NCBI RefSeq assembly: GCF_014638915.1
Contig: NZ_BMFQ01000002.1
Span: 1-64,000, forward strand
Direction: 5' to 3'
Origin: Xanthomarina arctica
GTDB taxonomy: Bacteria; Bacteroidota; Bacteroidia; Flavobacteriales; Flavobacteriaceae
DNA: 64,000 nt
Position 1 is the stretch's first letter. The number at the start of each line of letters is the position of its first letter. The notes under the pieces are model-generated. The model worked only from the letters and a program-made list of their open reading frames with translations. It had not been told where the DNA came from and did not search any database. The position numbers and the translations under genes are program-made. Below, piece by piece: positions 36,254 through 54,699 of the stretch.

Positions 36254-36396
36254 GAGTTTATAAATTCCTTTCACTAAGTTTTGTTTCTTTTGATGAACAG
36301 TTAGTATAATGACAATTCTTCATTTGGAATCCGTCTAAAAAAAACTCATTTCACCGATAAAGTGTGTAATTTATTCGTCAAGTCGTTAATTTTGTA

Positions 36397-36404
36397 TATA
36401 TTTG
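36397..36404 (+). promoter_or_regulatory. -7 promoter box of the second YhhN-like gene
   Basis: TATATTTG lies 21 bp before the ATG at 36426. No clear -33 TTTG was found. Confidence 0.4.
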
Positions 36405-36425: not shown

Positions 36426-37148
36426 ATGATTTTAACTAAATCGAATATTCTTATTGCATCCATAATTGCATTGTGCATTTCTTTTGCACTTTTTCAATTT
36501 CAGGATGAATATTTTATTTCTAGTATGTCAAAGTCTTTAATTGTACCATTATTTACCTTATTATATTTTATAAACGTAAAAAATAAATCCCCTTATTTTA
36601 CTTGGTTTCTTTTGTTGTTTTCTTTTTCAGAGTTAATAAATTTTATTTCTTTTTATTTAGATACAGACGAAGCTTTAGATCTCTTTTACTTAGCAGGCAA
36701 TTCTATCTATATAATTGCCTATATATTATTATTGTTTGAAGTTCTAAAAGGTCTTAAAATGAGTAAAGTAATTAAAGATTATAAGCACCATCTTTTGATA
36801 CTAGGTTTATTGAATATTTATATTGTATATGTGCTTTTAACAATTGTATATCCAGCCTTTAGTAATACAGATTTGGTCTATATTGAGCTTTTGTATAATG
36901 TGGTTATGCTCTTATTACTATCTTTTTCATTAATTGGCTATTTCTATAATGACAATAAAAAAGCCTTACTATTTTTCCTGGGTACCTTGTGTATTGTCTT
37001 TTCTGAGTTTATACAAATTGCCTATTTTTATATCATAGATACGGACATGCTTAATTTTGCTTCTACCTTATTGTTTGTATTGGCCTTTTGCTTTTATTAT
37101 TTCTATTCAAGAGTAAGGAATGAAAAAACCTTTAAGTTATTTAACTAA
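36426..37148 (+). CDS. YhhN-like integral membrane protein, paralogue 2
   Basis: The 240-residue protein has eight or so hydrophobic helices. It aligns with its neighbours over KSLIVPLFTLLYFINVKNKS, FSELINF, LGLLNIYIVYVLL and DNKKALLFFLGTLCIVFSEF. KSLIVP and the acidic SELINF match the KPLxxP and GD positions of YhhN/TMEM86 proteins, so YhhN-like is my best guess. It has its own upstream region and -7 box, so the three paralogues are probably independently expressed. The function is unknown. Confidence 0.6.
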   Translation: MILTKSNILIASIIALCISFALFQFQDEYFISSMSKSLIVPLFTLLYFINVKNKSPYFTWFLLLFSFSELINFISFYLDTDEALDLFYLAGNSIYIIAYILLLFEVLKGLKMSKVIKDYKHHLLILGLLNIYIVYVLLTIVYPAFSNTDLVYIELLYNVVMLLLLSFSLIGYFYNDNKKALLFFLGTLCIVFSEFIQIAYFYIIDTDMLNFASTLLFVLAFCFYYFYSRVRNEKTFKLFN

Positions 37149-47265: not shown

Positions 47266-47301
47266 AAAAGCGAGTCATATTTTTATGGCTCGCTTTTTTT
47301 T
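47266..47301 (+). terminator. Rho-independent terminator of fabI
   Basis: AAAGCGAGTCAT / ATGGCTCGCTTT (47267-47278, 47285-47296, one G-T pair) with loop ATTTTT is followed by a T run. Confidence 0.92.
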
Positions 47302-47347
47302 GTAAAAAAATATAATAACTCATTTTGTCATAAATTGTAAGAAATGT

Positions 47348-47379
47348 ATTTCGTCGTTAAAAAAAGATTTTTATCGATT
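47348..47379 (+). promoter_or_regulatory. Direct-repeat element of secreted-protein gene 1 (LytTR-like spacing)
   Basis: TTTCGTCG (47349-47356) and TTTTATCG (47369-47376) are direct repeats with starts 20 bp apart, and the first lies 106 bp before the ATG at 47455. The same arrangement at the same distance precedes genes 2 and 3. A conserved TATTTTTA -7-like box follows at 47417-47424. The two-turn spacing resembles LytTR-regulator sites; the binding protein is unknown. Confidence 0.6.
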
Positions 47380-47454
47380 TATTTGATTTAACACTTCCTT
47401 AACTAATAATTATCAATATTTTTAGCTTCTAATCAATAAATTACTTAATTAATT

Positions 47455-49923
47455 ATGAAAAAAATTACATTTTTATTATTTGCATTTGTTGCCTTTTGTT
47501 GGCAAGCTAATGCACAATTCACGGAGAGTTTTGAAACAGATATTCCAGCAACATGGACAGTTATTAATAATGGAAGTACACCTGGATGGGTTTATAACGG
47601 AGCGCCAGCTGGAGGAGCTGAAGATGGGACTGGAGTAGCTAGCATTTCATTTGGTTCTATAGCACATGACGATTATTTAATTACACCGGGTATAGCTGTA
47701 ACAGCGGGTGTAAATGATAGATTGTCTTTGTATATTAAATCTAGAAGTGCTACTTTTTTAGAGGCTTATGAGATTTTGTTGTCAACAACAGATGCAACTG
47801 CTGGAGCTTTTACGGAGGAATTACAGGCCTCAAGTGAAGCGCCTAACGCATGGACTCCTCTTTCTTTTGACCTAAGTGGATATGTAGGATCTACAGTTTA
47901 TGTAGCAGTACGTGCAACTGGTACCGATGAGTTTGCATTATATGTAGATAATGTGGTGAGTGATACTCCTCCTAGTTGTTTTCAACCAACCGCATTGACT
48001 GCTAATACTATCTCTACAACCGATGTAGATATTACTTGGACGGCTGGAGCTGGAGAAACTGCATGGAATTATGAATATGGTCCTGCAGGATTTACAATGG
48101 GTACAGGTGGTACAACTGGTAGTACGACAGTACCTAGCTTAACTCTTTCTGGTTTAACAGCAGGAGATTATGATATTTATGTGCAATCAGATTGTGGTTC
48201 TGGAGATTTAAGCCTTTGGACGGATGCAATCAGTTGGACTCAACCAAGTAATGTTGGTGATATTTGTTCATTACCATTAATAGCTACTTTAGAAGCTGAT
48301 TGTTCTACTGCTACAGCCAACACAATTGATTATGCGGTTGCAAGTGCGGATTTAAGTTCTGTTACTTGTTCTACTGCAACAAGTAATGGTGCATGGTATG
48401 AAATTACAACTTCAGATTCTGGAGCTATTAGACTTTATACTACTGGTGATGTTTCAGGTATGGCAGTTTTCTCAGATTGTGGAACTGAATTATATTGTAA
48501 TAGCACATTGGTTCCTGATTTTAGTTTATCAGGTTTTGCTCCTAATACAGCTTATTTAGTTGCTGTTTGGAAAGATGCGGCTACTACTGGAACCTCTACG
48601 GTTTGTTTTGAAGATATTGCTTGTCTTTTTGTGACCGATTTCACTGTAACTAGTGTTACCCAAACTTCAATGGAAATTGGATGGACAGAAAATGGCACAG
48701 CTACTGCTTGGGATGTTGAATATGGTATAACTGGTTTTACACCTACAGGAACACCTACGCTTGATGATGTATCTAATCCTTACAGTGTAACAAATTTATT
48801 AGCAGCTACTACATATGATTTTTACGTTCGTGCGGATTGTGGAATGAATAATACAGATGTAAGTGTTTATAATGGGCCATTTATCGTTACAACATTATCG
48901 GCTCCACCAGCAAACGATGATTGTTCTGGTGCTACCCCTTTAACTGTGGATGCAGATTTATCTTGCTCAAATCCAGTTGCGGGTACAACTATAGGGTCTA
49001 CTCAAAGTCTTCCTGGTTGTTTAGGTACTGCTAATGATGATGTTTGGTATTCATTTGTTGCTACTGGAACTACTCATGTAATTACTATAGCTAACACAGC
49101 TGGTAGTTCAGATATAGTTACTGAGGTTTTTGATGGATGTGGTGGAAATAGTTTAATGTGTCAAGATACTCCTAATTCACCTCTTACTGTAACAGGTTTA
49201 ACAGCAGGGAACACCTATTATTTTAGAATATATACATGGTCTTCTACTGCATCTCTTACTACTAGTTTTACTGTTTGTGTCGGAACTCCAGAACCAGCTC
49301 CAGCAAATGATGAATGTGTTGACGCAGAAGTTATAAACTGTGGTGATATGGTCAGTGGTTCTACTGTGTCTGCTACTAATTCTGGTAATAATACATCAAA
49401 TGATGTATGGTATGTTTTAGCAGGAACTGCTGTTGATCAAGAAATAACAGCTAGTTTATGTGGCTCAGATTTCGATACGTATATTAGAATCTTCGATGCT
49501 TGCGCTGGAACTCAAGTGGCATTTAATGATGACAATTCTGCTGCTTGTGGTACTGGTGGGAATTCTGAAGTAACATTTACTTCAGACGGAGTAACTACTT
49601 ATTATATTATGGTTGAAGGATACAGTACTAATAATGGTAATTTTGATTTAGCCATTACTTGTTCCACTATAGGAATTCAAGACTACAATGCAAGTGAGTT
49701 ATTTACTTACTATCCAAACCCGGTAAACAATACATTATCTTTAAGAGGTGTTAAAGCCATTCAAAATGTAGCTGTTTACAACATGTTAGGACAAGAAGTT
49801 TTACGTTCAGCTCCTAATACAGTTGATAGTGATTTAGATATGTCAAGTCTTAATGCAGGAACTTACTTTGTAAGAGTAACTGTTGAAAACGCGACTAAAA
49901 CAATTAAAATTATCAAGAAATAA
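47455..49923 (+). CDS. T9SS-secreted multidomain surface protein 1
   Basis: The 822-residue protein is secreted by the signal peptide (ANAQF, cleavage about 20) and a T9SS sorting domain (about 750-822, with YYPNPVNNTLSLRGV and GTYFVRVT). Between them lie a cleaved-adhesin/MAM-like domain (about 21-170: TESFETDIPATWTV), fibronectin-III-like modules (about 175-265, 395-480) and beta domains of the ANDDCSGAT / ANDECVDAE type (about 485-745) resembling pre-peptidase C-terminal domains. It has no catalytic motif, so adhesin is more likely than enzyme. It is the first of three tandem paralogues sharing signal peptide and sorting domain. Confidence 0.82.
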   Translation: MKKITFLLFAFVAFCWQANAQFTESFETDIPATWTVINNGSTPGWVYNGAPAGGAEDGTGVASISFGSIAHDDYLITPGIAVTAGVNDRLSLYIKSRSATFLEAYEILLSTTDATAGAFTEELQASSEAPNAWTPLSFDLSGYVGSTVYVAVRATGTDEFALYVDNVVSDTPPSCFQPTALTANTISTTDVDITWTAGAGETAWNYEYGPAGFTMGTGGTTGSTTVPSLTLSGLTAGDYDIYVQSDCGSGDLSLWTDAISWTQPSNVGDICSLPLIATLEADCSTATANTIDYAVASADLSSVTCSTATSNGAWYEITTSDSGAIRLYTTGDVSGMAVFSDCGTELYCNSTLVPDFSLSGFAPNTAYLVAVWKDAATTGTSTVCFEDIACLFVTDFTVTSVTQTSMEIGWTENGTATAWDVEYGITGFTPTGTPTLDDVSNPYSVTNLLAATTYDFYVRADCGMNNTDVSVYNGPFIVTTLSAPPANDDCSGATPLTVDADLSCSNPVAGTTIGSTQSLPGCLGTANDDVWYSFVATGTTHVITIANTAGSSDIVTEVFDGCGGNSLMCQDTPNSPLTVTGLTAGNTYYFRIYTWSSTASLTTSFTVCVGTPEPAPANDECVDAEVINCGDMVSGSTVSATNSGNNTSNDVWYVLAGTAVDQEITASLCGSDFDTYIRIFDACAGTQVAFNDDNSAACGTGGNSEVTFTSDGVTTYYIMVEGYSTNNGNFDLAITCSTIGIQDYNASELFTYYPNPVNNTLSLRGVKAIQNVAVYNMLGQEVLRSAPNTVDSDLDMSSLNAGTYFVRVTVENATKTIKIIKK

Positions 49924-49947
49924 ACTGATTATTTCTCATCAATATTT

Positions 49948-49976
49948 AAAAGCCACTCTAACGAGTGGCTTTTTTT
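49948..49976 (+). terminator. Terminator of secreted-protein gene 1
   Basis: AAAGCCACTC-TAAC-GAGTGGCTTT is followed by T. The loop is TAAC; the matching terminator of gene 2 has the reverse complement, GTTA. Confidence 0.9.
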
Positions 49977-49983
49977 ATGTTTG

Positions 49984-50019
49984 ATTTCGTCGTATAAATC
50001 TTACTTTCATCGATAAATC
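49984..50019 (+). promoter_or_regulatory. Direct-repeat element of secreted-protein gene 2
   Basis: TTTCGTCGTATAAATC (49985-50000) is followed by TTTCATCGATAAATC (50005-50019), near-identical repeats 20 bp apart, and the first again lies 106 bp before the ATG (50091). This copy shows the repeat most clearly, at 15-16 bp per unit. Confidence 0.62.
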
Positions 50020-50090
50020 TGGAAGGAGCCATTTAGTTCTATATTAAATTGCTATTTTTAGTTAAATATTAACTAACTAACCAAAATTTT

Positions 50091-52253
50091 ATGAAAAAAA
50101 TTACATTTTTATTTGCCTTTCTATTGACTCTTGTTGGCTATCAGTCACATGCTCAATATGGATGTGCTTCTGGTATTCCCATAACAGATGGGTATACTGC
50201 AACTGGAATAACCTCTCCAGGAACTGGAGGTCCTGAAGATTGGAATGATCCAAATCCTTCAACAATTAATATGTGTCAAAATGCTACAGGTGCGGCTTTA
50301 AGTCCATCTTATTTTGCTGATGATGTGTACTTGTTTACCTATACTGCTGGCGCAAATGATGAAGAAGTCTCAATGACAATCAACTCTCTTACTACCTGGA
50401 CTGGTTTGGGTATTTTTGCTTCATGTACTGGTACCTTTTTAGATGATTGTATGGGGTCTAGTGGTAGTACAAGTGGAGGTGTTCTAACTGCCACGGCCAC
50501 CGTGTCTTCTGGGCAAACAGTTTATATTGCCGTGGGACAATGGGGAACGCCAAATGCTTTAAATTTTGATGTAACTTCTTTTTCTGCCATTCCTTTGGTT
50601 AATCCTCCTTCTTGTACAATATTAAGTGCTCCATTAGATGGTGCTACTGATGTTGCAATTATTGGAAACCTTACATGGGCTTCGGCAACTGGCGGAGCAA
50701 CAGAGTATAACTTGGAGGTAGGAACTTCTTCCGGAGCATCTGATGTTTTTTCTGGTGCTGTAGGAAATGTAACAACCTATAACGTTGGGACTCTTGCATA
50801 TTCTTCAACATATTTTGTTACAATTACACCTTCTAATGCGAATGGTCCTGCAACTGGTTGTACTGAAGAAAGTTTTATGACCATAGCGCCACCTCCAACT
50901 GGCTCTATTTGTTCAGACCCAATAGTTATAGGTTCATTGCCTTACTCAGTATCAGACAATACCGCTAACTATGGTGATGATTACAGTGGAGCTCCTGGAA
51001 CAACTTGTGGAACAACTTCTGCATATTTAGGTGGAGATGATGTAGTTTATGCATACACAGCAACATCTGATACTGCTATCAATGTATCTATGTCACCAAC
51101 AGCAACCTGGTCGGGTATTTTTGTTTATACAGATTGTGCTGATATTGGTGTAGCTTGTGCAAACGGAATTGCAAATTCTGCTACTACCGAAAGAAATTTT
51201 GATTTAAATGTAACCACAGGAACAACTTATTATTTTGTTATTTCAACCTATCCTTCACCTCAATCAACAGAGTACAGTTTGGTAATTACAGAAAACACTT
51301 GTGTTGGAGCGACAGTTGTTTATACAGTTGTTAATGACTGCGATTTAAGCGGTGGTTTCTTAATAGATGTTGAAGTAACTGATATGGGAAGTGCCACATC
51401 CTTAACTGTTTCTGACGATCAAGGAAGTGCTTCTCAACAATTTACAAGTGTGGGAACAATGCAATTTGGACCTTACACAAATGCTACGGATGTGATTTTT
51501 ACAGTAGATGATGAAGGTGATGATGATAGTTGTACGCTTACTAGTTCTGCTCTTACACAAGTAGCCTGTCCTCCAGCGAATGATGAGTGTGCTGATGCTA
51601 CTGCTTTGATTCCAGGTGCAACTTATGGAGAAAATGCAGTTGATGGTATTTTAGTTGGTGCAACATATTCAGGTTTTACTAACACTTGTGGAGGAACTAC
51701 TGCTATTAGTAATGATGTTTGGTATTCTGTTGTTGTTCCAGCTGATGGAAATATTACAATTGAAACTGGAGCTGACATTGCAACTTCCAACCCAGGAAAT
51801 GACACTGCTTTCGAAGTTTACAGTGGAGATTGTGGGACCTTAACTTCTTTGGGTTGTGATGATGATGGAGCTGCTACAGGTCTTTTTTCTTTATTAGATT
51901 TAACTGGTTTAACTCCTGATTCAACTATTTATGTTAGAGTTTGGGGTTATCTTAATACACAACTTGAGCCATTTTCAATTTCGGCTTATAATTTAAGTTT
52001 ATCAATTAATGAATTGAGTATAGAGAATTTGTTTTCTTACTATCCAAACCCTGTAAACAACACATTCTCATTAAGAGCTGTTAAAGCCATACAAAATGTA
52101 GCTGTTTATAACATGTTAGGACAAGAAGTTTTACGTTCAGCCCCTAATACAGTTGATAGTGATTTAGATATGTCAAGTCTTAATGCAGGAACTTACTTTG
52201 TAAAAGTAACTATCGAAAATGCGACTAAAACAATTAAAATTATCAAGAAATAA
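50091..52253 (+). CDS. T9SS-secreted multidomain surface protein 2
   Basis: The 720-residue protein has a signal peptide (SHAQY, cleavage about 21). An N-terminal beta domain (GCASGIPITDGYTATG...) is followed by a fibronectin-III-like module (about 180-265: NLTWASATGG), a PPC-like domain (IVIGSLPYSVSDNTA) and a module beginning VVYTVVNDCDLSGGFLIDV. A final ANDECADATALIPG domain and the T9SS sorting domain (about 650-720) end it. The VVYTVVND and fibronectin modules recur in gene 3, and the sorting domain is nearly identical in DNA to that of gene 1. It has no catalytic motif and is probably a surface adhesin. Confidence 0.82.
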   Translation: MKKITFLFAFLLTLVGYQSHAQYGCASGIPITDGYTATGITSPGTGGPEDWNDPNPSTINMCQNATGAALSPSYFADDVYLFTYTAGANDEEVSMTINSLTTWTGLGIFASCTGTFLDDCMGSSGSTSGGVLTATATVSSGQTVYIAVGQWGTPNALNFDVTSFSAIPLVNPPSCTILSAPLDGATDVAIIGNLTWASATGGATEYNLEVGTSSGASDVFSGAVGNVTTYNVGTLAYSSTYFVTITPSNANGPATGCTEESFMTIAPPPTGSICSDPIVIGSLPYSVSDNTANYGDDYSGAPGTTCGTTSAYLGGDDVVYAYTATSDTAINVSMSPTATWSGIFVYTDCADIGVACANGIANSATTERNFDLNVTTGTTYYFVISTYPSPQSTEYSLVITENTCVGATVVYTVVNDCDLSGGFLIDVEVTDMGSATSLTVSDDQGSASQQFTSVGTMQFGPYTNATDVIFTVDDEGDDDSCTLTSSALTQVACPPANDECADATALIPGATYGENAVDGILVGATYSGFTNTCGGTTAISNDVWYSVVVPADGNITIETGADIATSNPGNDTAFEVYSGDCGTLTSLGCDDDGAATGLFSLLDLTGLTPDSTIYVRVWGYLNTQLEPFSISAYNLSLSINELSIENLFSYYPNPVNNTFSLRAVKAIQNVAVYNMLGQEVLRSAPNTVDSDLDMSSLNAGTYFVKVTIENATKTIKIIKK

Positions 52254-52277
52254 ACTGATTATTTCTAATCAATATTT

Positions 52278-52305
52278 AAAAGCCACTCGTTAGAGTGGCT
52301 TTTTT
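52278..52305 (+). terminator. Terminator of secreted-protein gene 2
   Basis: AAAGCCACTC-GTTA-GAGTGGCTTT is followed by TTTTT. The stem is the same as after gene 1 but the loop is inverted. Confidence 0.9.
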
Positions 52306-52312
52306 ATGTTTC

Positions 52313-52348
52313 ATTTCGTCGTATAAATCTTACTTTTATCGATAAATC
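52313..52348 (+). promoter_or_regulatory. Direct-repeat element of secreted-protein gene 3
   Basis: TTTCGTCG (52314-52321) and TTTTATCG (52334-52341) repeat with starts 20 bp apart, and the first lies 106 bp before the ATG at 52420. A -7-like TATTTTTA follows at 52382-52389. Confidence 0.6.
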
Positions 52349-52419
52349 GGGAAGGAGCCATTTAGTTCTATATTAAATTGCTATTTTTAGTTAAATATTA
52401 ACTAACTAACCAAAATTTT

Positions 52420-54699
52420 ATGAAAAAAATTACATTTTTATTTTCTTTTTGTTTGCTAACGCTTGGAGCCTTCGCTCAAACGGTGCAAACTTTTACAGCA
52501 AGTGGGCAGGATGATGATCCAACCGTGTTAACAATTCTTCCAGGTGATATTACTGTTAATGGAGCGAACCCTATTACGGCATTAAGCCTGACAAATTTCT
52601 CAGTACATTATTACACACCAGATGGCGATGATACATGGTGTGGAAGCTGGTATGATTTTGATCTAGCTATTGTAGGTGGCGCTGCTGATGGAACAAATAT
52701 TATTGGTGGTTGTTCACCAGATTTTGAAATTGCAGATGTATTAGATTTTACCTCTATAACTTTAACGTCTAATACCATAGATTCTTGGTCTGATCTTATT
52801 TACATGTATGTAGATTTATCAGTAACATTTACTGCCTCTGAACCACCTGTGTGTAATGCGGTATTAACCAATCCGCTAAATGGTGAGACTATTGCTAGTA
52901 ATGACGGAAATATTGAATGGAGCGCCGCTACTGGTGGAGTAGATGGATATTATTTAACTGTTGGAACTACCTCAGGTGGTTCTGAATTTTTAGCAACAAC
53001 AGATGTTGGTAATGTAACAACTTATGAACTTGGTATCTTAACAGGAGGTATTACGTATTATGTTAATATTGTGCCTTACAATCCTATAGGTTCTGCTACT
53101 TCATGTACAGAATATAGTTTTACAGTTGCTGAAGTTCCAGGCTGTGCAATAAACCCAGAACCAGCAGATGGGGCTGTAGGTGTACCAGTTGGAAATGTTA
53201 CTTTTTCTTGGGAAGCTCCAACTTCTGGGCCAACTCCAACATCGTATAATTTATATGCAGGAGAAACTCCTACTGGAGATGATTATGGTCTGATTGCAAA
53301 TTTTACAGATTTTAATGCAGCACTTACGCTAAATGGTTATGATTTAGAATTGTTTTGGATTGTAAAACCTGTTAACGGAACTACCGAAGCTACAGGATGT
53401 CCAGTTTGGAGCTTTATAACAGAATCTGCACCACCAACCCCAGCAAATAACGAATGTGCGGATGCTGAAACTATAAATTGTGGAGACACTGTAAGTGGTT
53501 ATACTACAACTGCAACGGATAATGGAGGTTATAATGCCTCTAATGATGTTTGGTATGTATTGGCCGGAACTGCTAATGGAGAAGAAATAACTGCTAGTTT
53601 ATGTGGTTCAGATTATGATACTTACATCAGTGTCTATGATGCATGTGGGGGTAATGTAGTTGCTGGTAATGATGATTTTTGTAGTGTTCAATCACAAGTG
53701 ACATTTACTTCAGATGGATCATCTACTTATTACATTGCAGTAGAGGGATATGGTACTGGTAGTGGTAATTTTGATCTAGCTGTAACCTGTGTTCCACCAC
53801 CAGCCTGTGTTGAACCTACATTCACTATTGCATTAGGAGCAAACAATTGCCCTACGGAAGAATATTATGTAGATGTTGTTGTTACTAATTTAGGAACAGG
53901 TGCTGCTGTAGATATTTCTGATGATTCAGGGGTTATTCAAACAGCTGTTGGACTAGGTTCCTATTCTTTTGGCCCGTATGCGGCAGCAACTGATGTAAAT
54001 ATAACTGTTGAAGACGCGGCTGGAGATACTTGTAGTGCAACAGATTCTATCACAACACCTTTAGCATGCCCTCCAGCTAATGACCTATGTGTAAACGCGG
54101 AAATTGTATATTGTGGAGATGTAATTAATGGTTCTACAATATCTGCTACAGACACTGGTAATAATGCTTCAAACGATGTATGGTATTCTTTAGCAGGTAC
54201 TACAGACGGAGAAGAGATATCTATTAGTTTATGTGGTTCAGATTTTGATACTTATCTAAGAGTATTTGATGCATGTTCAGGAACGGAAGTCGTTTCAAAT
54301 GATGATGATTTTTGTGATGGCTCTATTGCTGTTCAATCTGCAGTAACTTTTACCTCAGACGGAACATCTACTTATTATATCATGGTTGAAGGTTACAGTA
54401 GTAATAATGGTAATTTTGTTCTAACTGTAGGAACATGCTCTACTGTTGGAATTGAAGAATACAATGCAAGTGAATTGTTTAGCTATTATCCAAACCCTGT
54501 TAATAGTACATTAAATTTAAGAGGACAAAAAGCTATTCAAAATGTAGCTATTTACAATATGTTAGGTCAAGAGGTATTACGTACATCTCCTAATGCAGTT
54601 GATAGTGCTTTAGATATGTCAAGTCTTAATGCAGGAACTTACTTTGTAAAAGTAACTATTGAGAATATAACTAAAACGATTAAAGTGATTAAGAAATAA
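52420..54699 (+). CDS. T9SS-secreted multidomain surface protein 3
   Basis: The 759-residue protein has a signal peptide (GAFAQ, cleavage about 20). An N-terminal beta domain comes first, then two fibronectin-III-like modules (about 145-235 and 240-335). Two copies of the ANNECADAE / ANDLCVNAE PPC-like domain follow (about 345-460 and 560-680), with a gene-2-type module (FTIALGANNCPTEEY) between them. The sorting domain is at about 690-759. The two PPC-like domains share CGD, SNDVWY, DTYxxVxDAC and TFTSDG blocks with each other and with gene 1. This indicates domain duplication and exchange among the three genes. No enzyme motif was seen; surface adhesion is likely. Confidence 0.82.
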   Translation: MKKITFLFSFCLLTLGAFAQTVQTFTASGQDDDPTVLTILPGDITVNGANPITALSLTNFSVHYYTPDGDDTWCGSWYDFDLAIVGGAADGTNIIGGCSPDFEIADVLDFTSITLTSNTIDSWSDLIYMYVDLSVTFTASEPPVCNAVLTNPLNGETIASNDGNIEWSAATGGVDGYYLTVGTTSGGSEFLATTDVGNVTTYELGILTGGITYYVNIVPYNPIGSATSCTEYSFTVAEVPGCAINPEPADGAVGVPVGNVTFSWEAPTSGPTPTSYNLYAGETPTGDDYGLIANFTDFNAALTLNGYDLELFWIVKPVNGTTEATGCPVWSFITESAPPTPANNECADAETINCGDTVSGYTTTATDNGGYNASNDVWYVLAGTANGEEITASLCGSDYDTYISVYDACGGNVVAGNDDFCSVQSQVTFTSDGSSTYYIAVEGYGTGSGNFDLAVTCVPPPACVEPTFTIALGANNCPTEEYYVDVVVTNLGTGAAVDISDDSGVIQTAVGLGSYSFGPYAAATDVNITVEDAAGDTCSATDSITTPLACPPANDLCVNAEIVYCGDVINGSTISATDTGNNASNDVWYSLAGTTDGEEISISLCGSDFDTYLRVFDACSGTEVVSNDDDFCDGSIAVQSAVTFTSDGTSTYYIMVEGYSSNNGNFVLTVGTCSTVGIEEYNASELFSYYPNPVNSTLNLRGQKAIQNVAIYNMLGQEVLRTSPNAVDSALDMSSLNAGTYFVKVTIENITKTIKVIKK

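Follow-up and report, generated by a model that had tools for sequence, protein, structure and literature searches.

A 20-bp-period direct repeat upstream of three secreted-protein genes of Xanthomarina arctica, a probable LytTR-type operator recurring in Flavobacteriaceae

LytTR-type regulators are described as binding direct repeats of 9-11 base pairs (bp), 11-13 bp apart and upstream of the promoter, with autoregulation in Streptococcus mutans (PMC6193735), and the repeats of AgrA are centred near -60 (PMC4227749). For flavobacteria, a transcription start site (TSS) study of Flavobacterium psychrophilum defined six sigma-factor promoter motifs, SM1-SM6 (PMC9723704), and an evolution experiment with F. 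johnsoniae yielded a mutated LytTR regulator, FJOH_RS09515, encoded beside a histidine kinase (PMC10197871). In Bacteroides thetaiotaomicron, the FopS small RNAs (sRNAs) comprise 14 siblings whose seed occupies a single-stranded 5' segment (PMC11697453). Here we describe a direct-repeat pair that precedes three consecutive genes for secreted proteins with sorting domains of the type IX secretion system (T9SS) in Xanthomarina arctica, whose genome comprises 3,906,292 bases in 20 contigs; the stretch analysed, hereafter the window, is positions 1-64000 of contig 2. The three pairs are probably operators of a two-component LytTR-type response regulator, and the window appears to hold one clear operator copy and two degenerate duplicates of an element that is, in our assessment, real, selected and most likely of the LytTR kind. 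Our search of the open-access literature on LytTR proteins in flavobacteria and Bacteroidetes, regulons, start sites and sRNAs yielded no title or abstract describing the element, the regulator or the RNA.

Genes 1, 2 and 3 stand on the forward strand at 47455-49923, 50091-52253 and 52420-54699, and encode secreted proteins of 822, 720 and 759 amino acids (aa), respectively. All three proteins carry a T9SS type A sorting domain (TIGR04183; 57.8, 58.3 and 56.6 bits against a cut-off of 23) and also match PF18962, and that of gene 1 further contains cleaved-adhesin/choice-of-anchor J and fn3 domains. Upstream of each start the layout is the same, with TTTCGTCG at -106, TTTYATCG at -86 and the -7-like box TATTTTTA at -38, as the earlier note had reported for a repeat pair and box at equal distances before the three genes, the pair starting one base later than given there. 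All three pairs have 8-bp cores with 12 bp between them, i.e., TTTCGTCG-N12-TTTYATCG (cores only: 47349-47376, 49985-50012 and 52314-52341). At up to two mismatches the pattern was matched in the window at these three places only, whereas 100 dinucleotide shuffles gave 0.08 matches on average, and its exact form occurs in the whole 3.9-Mb genome in these three copies only (reversed control, 0). The pattern in the window is not due to chance.

With the flanks defined below, putative operator copy 1 spans 47345-47377 (units 47345-47357 and 47365-47377; cores TTTCGTCG at 47349-47356 and TTTTATCG at 47369-47376), copy 2 spans 49981-50013 (cores 49985-49992 and 50005-50012) and copy 3, a duplicate of copy 2, spans 52310-52342 (cores 52314-52321 and 52334-52341). 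The TATTTTTA boxes of genes 1, 2 and 3 lie at 47417-47424 (39 bp past the operator end), 50053-50060 and 52382-52389. Terminator-like hairpins were found 3' of the gene preceding gene 1 (47266-47297), 3' of gene 1 (49948-49973) and 3' of gene 2 (52278-52303), all these features being on the forward strand; since every pair stands soon downstream of the preceding gene's hairpin, each of the three genes looks like its own transcription unit.

The 106 bp ahead of genes 2 and 3 are identical at 104 positions, and a 410-bp block of copies 2 and 3, which includes the end of the preceding gene, is identical in 382 of 417 alignment columns. Copies 2 and 3 evidently stem from one duplication, promoter included, and are not independent; hence the independent comparison is that of copy 1 with copies 2 and 3. 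In this comparison 20-21 of 28 positions agree within the pair and 35-36 of 78 between the pair and the ATG (ungapped), the chance level for copies 1 and 2 outside the pair being a mean of 27 and a maximum of 40 in 2000 shuffles.

Across the family, relaxing the first half-site to TTTCRTCG gave 42 matches in 33 of 149 genomes, three of them in X. arctica, against 7 for the reversed pattern. In 30 aligned loci of other genomes, conservation extended beyond the search pattern: around the first half, T at -4, G at -3 and A at -1 were each present in 26 loci and A at +8 in 27, and ahead of the second half T was found in 25 and G in 24. This flank conservation delimits a repeat unit, TGYATTTCRTCGA, present twice with a 20-bp period; the element is therefore written as TGYATTTCRTCGA-N7-TGYATTTYATCGA, with a unit of 13 bp, and the pair seen in the window is its core. 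At up to three mismatches the two-unit element occurs in 246 of 397 Flavobacteriaceae genomes, versus 1 of 397 for the reversed control. When the gap between units was left free (2-20 bp), 67 of 249 genomes matched (reversed control, 0 of 249), and a tally by hand over 91 listed places gave gaps of 7 bp in 58, 8 in 11, 9 in 3, 10 in 4, 6 in 2 and 15-20 in 13, with none at 2-5 or 11-14. The strict form, searched over 84,980 named species genomes, was found in 39 stretches, to judge by their record titles all from Bacteroidota and mostly from Flavobacteriaceae, including Maribacter, Muriicola, Cellulophaga, Flavobacterium and Aequorivita. A relaxed pattern lacking the TGY flank, at three mismatches, was discarded as noise (48 matches versus 53 in the reversed control).

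For scoring, a matrix was built from 141 distinct sites of other genomes, X. arctica excluded; its own sites, all with at most three mismatches by construction, score 24.6 bits at the minimum, 34.6 at the 10% quantile and 43.1 at the median. Copy 1 reaches 27.7 bits and ranks first among window positions, with no equal or higher score in one 4-Mb Markov sequence; copy 3 (9.4 bits, rank 2) had no match as high there, and copy 2 (3.5 bits, rank 4) had nine. Copy 1 is evidently a weak but genuine family member, and copies 2 and 3 appear to be degenerate duplicates, supported mainly by their likeness to copy 1. Given that the promoters of genes 2 and 3 are so nearly identical, and that the three genes share signal-peptide and C-terminal sequence, the pairs might be ordinary promoter surroundings, an ancestral copy carried along by gene duplication without function. 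This is highly improbable, since copy 1 retains its pair amid diverged sequence and tops the window under a matrix taken from other genomes, and the family-wide element, with its near-zero control, counts against mere duplication. Selection on the element, which the earlier note had proposed from the diverged surroundings of copy 1, is thus the supported reading, as opposed to a product of duplication only. Furthermore, among a selection of X. arctica loci scored with the matrix, sites of 22-34 bits stand before or beside genes whose look-alikes elsewhere bear the element (matched by eye), namely those for an esterase-like protein, a CAP-like lipoprotein, a QQEKGI protein, a proline-rich short protein and a leucine-rich-repeat-like protein.

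The position of the element relative to the promoter was analysed with 139 sites, sorted by their downstream sequence into 95 clusters, and TAnnTTTG boxes 4-60 bp downstream. These boxes fall near 9, 20, 31, 42 and 51 bp from the element, on a 10.5-bp ladder (30 offsets; resultant R 0.87 at 10.5 bp, Rayleigh p 1.2e-10), whereas a 9-bp period gave no signal (p 0.81). With one representative per cluster, 31 boxes lie in the first 61 bp downstream versus 18 in 130 bp upstream, a perfect box being present in at most about one-third of the clusters. The distance from element to ATG varies among relatives, and what stays fixed is the helical phase to the -7 box. The check proposed in the earlier note, for matches clustering about 106 bp before other cargo genes, was not borne out, as the scan of the X. 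arctica genome returned no further exact match. At four loci (L279, L120 upstream of gldK, L288 and L291) CATTTCATCGATGAAATG-like palindromes are surrounded by half-sites of either orientation, and the regulator may thus bind to some promoters from both sides. Within the window, the third-best matrix score (4.2 bits; 6 as high in the 4-Mb Markov sequence) belongs to 36345-36377, which lies 19 bp ahead of a perfect -7 box, TATATTTG (36397-36404), on the helical ladder; the open reading frame (ORF) behind it, 36426-37148, encodes a membrane-like protein with no Pfam match.

The best candidate for the regulator is a LytTR response regulator of 231 aa (L011 type; X. arctica gene at G000:C4:382653-383345), with receiver (PF00072, 4.3e-19) and LytTR (PF04397, 4.9e-19) domains, whose gene adjoins rpsF-like and rplI-like genes in the loci read. 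The X. arctica genome contains 13 LytTR matches, and LytTR proteins occur in all 26 genomes chosen for comparison (12 element-rich and 14 without a match in the 397-genome scan), so their mere presence is uninformative. Identity to the X. arctica copy of the candidate was 92-96% in 9 element-rich genomes versus 60-64% in 4 classed as negative; for a control LytTR regulator, L004, it was 72-75% in 7 rich genomes versus 60-70% in 7 others, the sets being partly different. An orthologue at E 1e-91 or better is present in 281 of the 397 genomes, 237 with the element and 44 without, and of the 116 genomes lacking one, the element is present in 9 and absent from 107 (odds ratio 64, p 3e-49; this and the other association p values ignore relatedness, and related genomes are not independent). 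The 281 orthologues divide into 124 near-identical (E 1e-127 or better; the regulator is 85-100% identical in 124 of 397 genomes) and 157 diverged, with the element present and absent in 113 and 11 genomes of the former group and 124 and 33 of the latter; being common in both, it does not require near-identity. Element-free here means by this pattern and threshold only: G201, so classed, has a 21-bp-period match, and G160 and G201 carry sites of 21.7 and 10.8 bits ahead of their copy of an sRNA described below. Genome size and general LytTR content are confounders of the association. Among the 108 genomes of at least 3 Mb, the element was present/absent in 87/12 genomes with the candidate versus 1/8 without it (p 2.9e-6), and in 84/18 versus 4/2 for L004 (p 0.31); moreover, 13 of the 15 genomes with L004 and without the candidate lack the element.

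Gene order points the same way. In 41 genomes with a near-identical regulator of listed coordinate there are 60 listed places, 21 of them within 40 kb of the regulator; such linkage occurs in 20 of the 41 genomes, against a chance of 2.4% per site. Shared ancestry inflates this linkage, and the count leaves out the diverged G030 and G096, whose sites are on other contigs. The regulator's own promoter, in the high-identity set, retains a degenerate copy, with one half resembling TGCATTTTATCGA and the other, TGGTTTTTAACCGA, following at an unchanged period. Within the near-identical set (39 rows, with four genomes entered twice), identity of the LytTR domain is 97%.

The core-word scan of all 13 X. 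arctica LytTR loci found no pair; a variant pair beside L007 was found by eye. In a row at L176:5492-11664 (G000:C4) stand a TPR/HisKA_2 kinase gene, a LytTR regulator gene and a cargo-like gene; the regulator and cargo-like genes are separated by a variant of the element with a period of 21 bp, and stop-containing LytTR fragments (L014, L015) lie beside a second copy of such a cargo-like gene. Another LytTR regulator, such as the one at G000:C4:459.2k, which is flanked by a TPR/HisKA_2 kinase and a T9SS-like cargo gene, might read the window's LytTR operator. LytTR paralogues may share related sites, and the adjacency of kinase, regulator and cargo-like gene, with a TGCATTTCAAC...TGTATTTCATAGA pair of 21-bp period between the latter two, fits this. 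We consider it unlikely, since that pair has another period and another core than the element, and the family-wide element tracks the regulator beside rpsF, L004 being the only other kind compared across genomes.

An AraC-type or other direct-repeat regulator, co-inherited with the LytTR regulator by chance, would also be conceivable as the binding protein. Two-turn direct repeats are used by AraC-type proteins as well, with half-sites about 21 bp apart and two contacts about 10 bp apart in each, a geometry that the 13-bp unit would fit. The linkage to the LytTR regulator gene, the weak sites in the promoter of that gene and a spacing of the published LytTR kind make this distinctly improbable, the regulators compared with the element across genomes being two LytTR kinds. 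A LytTR-type regulator, suggested from the spacing in the earlier note, is the best-supported reading, now with a specific candidate, the two-turn repeats alone being no proof of it.

With regard to targets, 30 loci were picked automatically by the search tool, which took the top-scoring site from each of the 30 genomes that head the list of the 397-genome scan. Eleven of these sites have a complete co-directional ORF of at least 60 aa within 330 bp, and at one further site the ORF leaves the fetched stretch. TIGR04183 was found in 7 of the 11 co-directional target proteins, whereas 4 of the 131 remaining ORFs at these loci carry it (p 5e-7); a crude signal-peptide rule was satisfied by 11 of 11 versus 28 of 131. 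A choice-of-anchor D domain is present in 6 of the 11, so the cargo enrichment rests largely on one recurrent cargo type; the suggested association with T9SS cargo is partly upheld. This automatic set replaced an earlier one, with TIGR04183 in 8 of 23 proteins, which was dropped as main evidence because its loci had partly been hand-chosen knowing the cargo link. Its 60 controls had been hand-picked from a random 90 of 157 and included two PorX proteins, and in another part of it 9 of 10 targets, scanned singly, showed no type A and one type B domain.

Among other site-adjacent proteins, three are GldK by NCBIfam (591-599 bits against a cut-off of 350), the site pointing away from the gene at one gldK locus (L120). 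Further neighbours include an extracytoplasmic function (ECF) sigma factor (TIGR02937), a hybrid kinase and VanX (NF033115), and curli-like and YkwD/CAP-like neighbours score below their cut-offs. In three genomes (L285, L286 and L289) the element lies between an apparent PorX gene and a TsaE-like gene, recognised by eye.

Several observations weigh against the regulator beside rpsF reading these operators, and co-occurrence across genomes does not amount to binding. Copies 2 and 3 score poorly, with cores kept and TGY flanks lost, and the window's TATTTTTA stands at 39 bp, about 1.7 bp short of the ladder, which counts mildly against a perfect fit. There are 44 genomes with the regulator and without the element at the threshold used, and 9 with the reverse (G023, G046, G079, G088, G194, G246, G268, G292 and G386; four are less than 90% complete). 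Even for L004, an association with the element is seen when all 149 genomes are counted (95/23 versus 8/23, p 2e-8), relatedness among genomes is not accounted for in any of these p values, and the kinds of LytTR protein of X. arctica compared across genomes are two, the candidate and L004. In the high-identity set, sites in the regulator's own promoter score between -7 and 22 bits, with 10 or more in 7 of 41 rows (some genomes twice), and those before the regulator gene are negative in all diverged loci. The LytTR domain is 71% identical in 16 diverged loci with the element versus 69% in 8 without, so the domain alone does not explain the missing sites. Finally, 18 of the 30 automatic sites have no co-directional ORF of at least 60 aa within 330 bp; these include leader or RNA-like stretches and divergent genes.

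Downstream of the element, seven loci (two pairs of which look the same in sequence) have a short untranslated sequence with a predicted RNA layout of a 5' hairpin, AGAUUUGGGG left unpaired, and a terminator in which the stem sequence changes but its pairing is kept (folding z-scores -4.7 and -4.0). The predicted sRNA family carries a AGAUUUGGG seed between the two hairpins. A covariance model built on 13 copies, run without a reversed control, matches 203 of 249 genomes with up to 7 copies each, and presence of the sRNA goes with the regulator at E 1e-60 (185/3 versus 18/43). The X. arctica copies lie at G000:C1:770060-770136 and G000:C1:770291-770366 (L349, L359). Sibling candidates were seen in other loci (L028, L038, L077, L086, L095, L103 and L104). 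In Rfam, no sRNA family reached the gathering score in 12 loci, nor did any in 5 loci searched further with E up to 0.1.

The operator upstream of these RNAs was sought in 50 loci obtained through the RNA model, the 30 best over 249 genomes plus 20 in nine genomes chosen by us. In 45 of these 50, the best operator position stands 38-41 bp ahead of where the RNA begins, compared with a largest pile-up of 16 and a mean of 9.8 for 30 column-permuted matrices; as a few sRNA promoters are among the 141 matrix sites, this test is not fully independent. The upstream sites exceed 20 bits in 21 of 50 loci, and those of the two X. arctica copies score -9.5 and 7.4 bits. Moreover, of 135 other element sites, counted without merging orthologues, 42 have CCCAAA within 130 bp downstream, versus 2 upstream and 2 on the reverse strand downstream. 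Duplexes with the sRNA of -18 kcal/mol or better were predicted downstream of 90 sites and upstream of 25, and the best sRNA-leader duplexes have more than 20 base pairs (L017, L080). The window genes were rejected as sRNA targets: their duplexes (-13.9, -11.3 and -11.3) are weaker than the control medians of -15.1 (upstream) and -16.5 (shuffled), which came from longer stretches, and CCCAAA is absent from the 60 bases examined at these genes.

A conserved leader or RNA stands behind the element at ten further loci (L018, L020, L026, L043, L046, L099, L115, L123, L134 and L135), a VanX-type gene being next in some (NF033115 in 1 of the 11 automatic-set proteins, at L374, the same locus as L123). 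Those read further have CCCCAAATCTA and a terminator-like end, so the leader could pair with the sRNA seed. The CCCCAAATCTA sequence was also seen beside terminator-like hairpins (L133, L284) and, at L310 and L315, directly 3' of a cargo gene, which suggests that 3' ends may also provide partners for the sRNA.

Taken together, we infer from sequence patterns a scheme of binding, activation and sRNA function, the RNAs and their role being predictions. The phosphorylated LytTR regulator would bind both half-sites on one helix face and activate transcription from the downstream TAnnTTTG-type box, by which the three T9SS-exported proteins of the window would become part of a regulon for surface and secreted proteins. 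This regulator would also drive the sibling sRNAs and, to a weak degree, the gene that encodes it. More tentatively, and with chances that we put slightly below even, this could amount to a family-wide surface switch in which one LytTR regulator turns on T9SS adhesins, gldK, envelope genes and sRNAs in a feed-forward loop, the seed AGAUUUGGG pairing with CCCAAAUCU in the 5' untranslated regions of part of the same genes. Such a loop would combine a transcriptional arm, the 20-bp-period operator, with a post-transcriptional arm, the sRNAs. For the question of when flavobacteria display T9SS-exported surface proteins, our results name a candidate regulator, a site and targets, and would tie the regulation of T9SS surface genes to sRNAs of a widespread family. 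Should the scheme hold, the regulation could be predicted in hundreds of genomes from the sequences of sites, regulator and sRNAs.

Among known systems, PorX/PorY-SigP is similar in joining a response regulator to the T9SS, and the element precedes some of the gldK (PorK/GldK) genes. PorX combines a receiver with a PglZ domain; in contrast, the candidate described here is a LytTR protein, scoring 29.9 bits against the PorX model NF052313 (cut-off, 300). The order response regulator, regulatory RNAs and exported proteins is also known from VirR-VR-RNA in Clostridium perfringens and LuxO-Qrr in Vibrio, i.e., in other phyla. The motifs SM1-SM6 of F. psychrophilum have in common with the promoters downstream of the element the TAnnTTTG -7 box; however, they are sigma-factor motifs, and LytTR, direct repeat and operator are not mentioned in the main text of that study (PMC9723704). 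The PhoP motif of Riemerella, TTTAACA (PMC9603813), was also considered and has no resemblance to the element. As in FopS, several sibling sRNAs share a seed and end in a rho-independent terminator, and FopS binds near the start codons of surface-protein mRNAs; unlike in FopS, up to 7 copies per genome occur, a 5' hairpin is predicted and the seed lies between this and a second hairpin. There is also a likeness to the LytTR operators of AgrA in Staphylococcus, HdrR/BrsR in Streptococcus mutans and the Bacteroides LytTR operons, which the window's 8-bp cores, 12 bp apart, fit. Two-turn direct repeats, a site that across the family keeps to one face of the helix just upstream of the promoter, and tracking of a LytTR regulator were all found here, whereas, unlike in those operators, the unit is 13 bp long (TGYATTTCRTCGA), the period is mostly 20 bp and the element can lie several helical turns from the -7 box.

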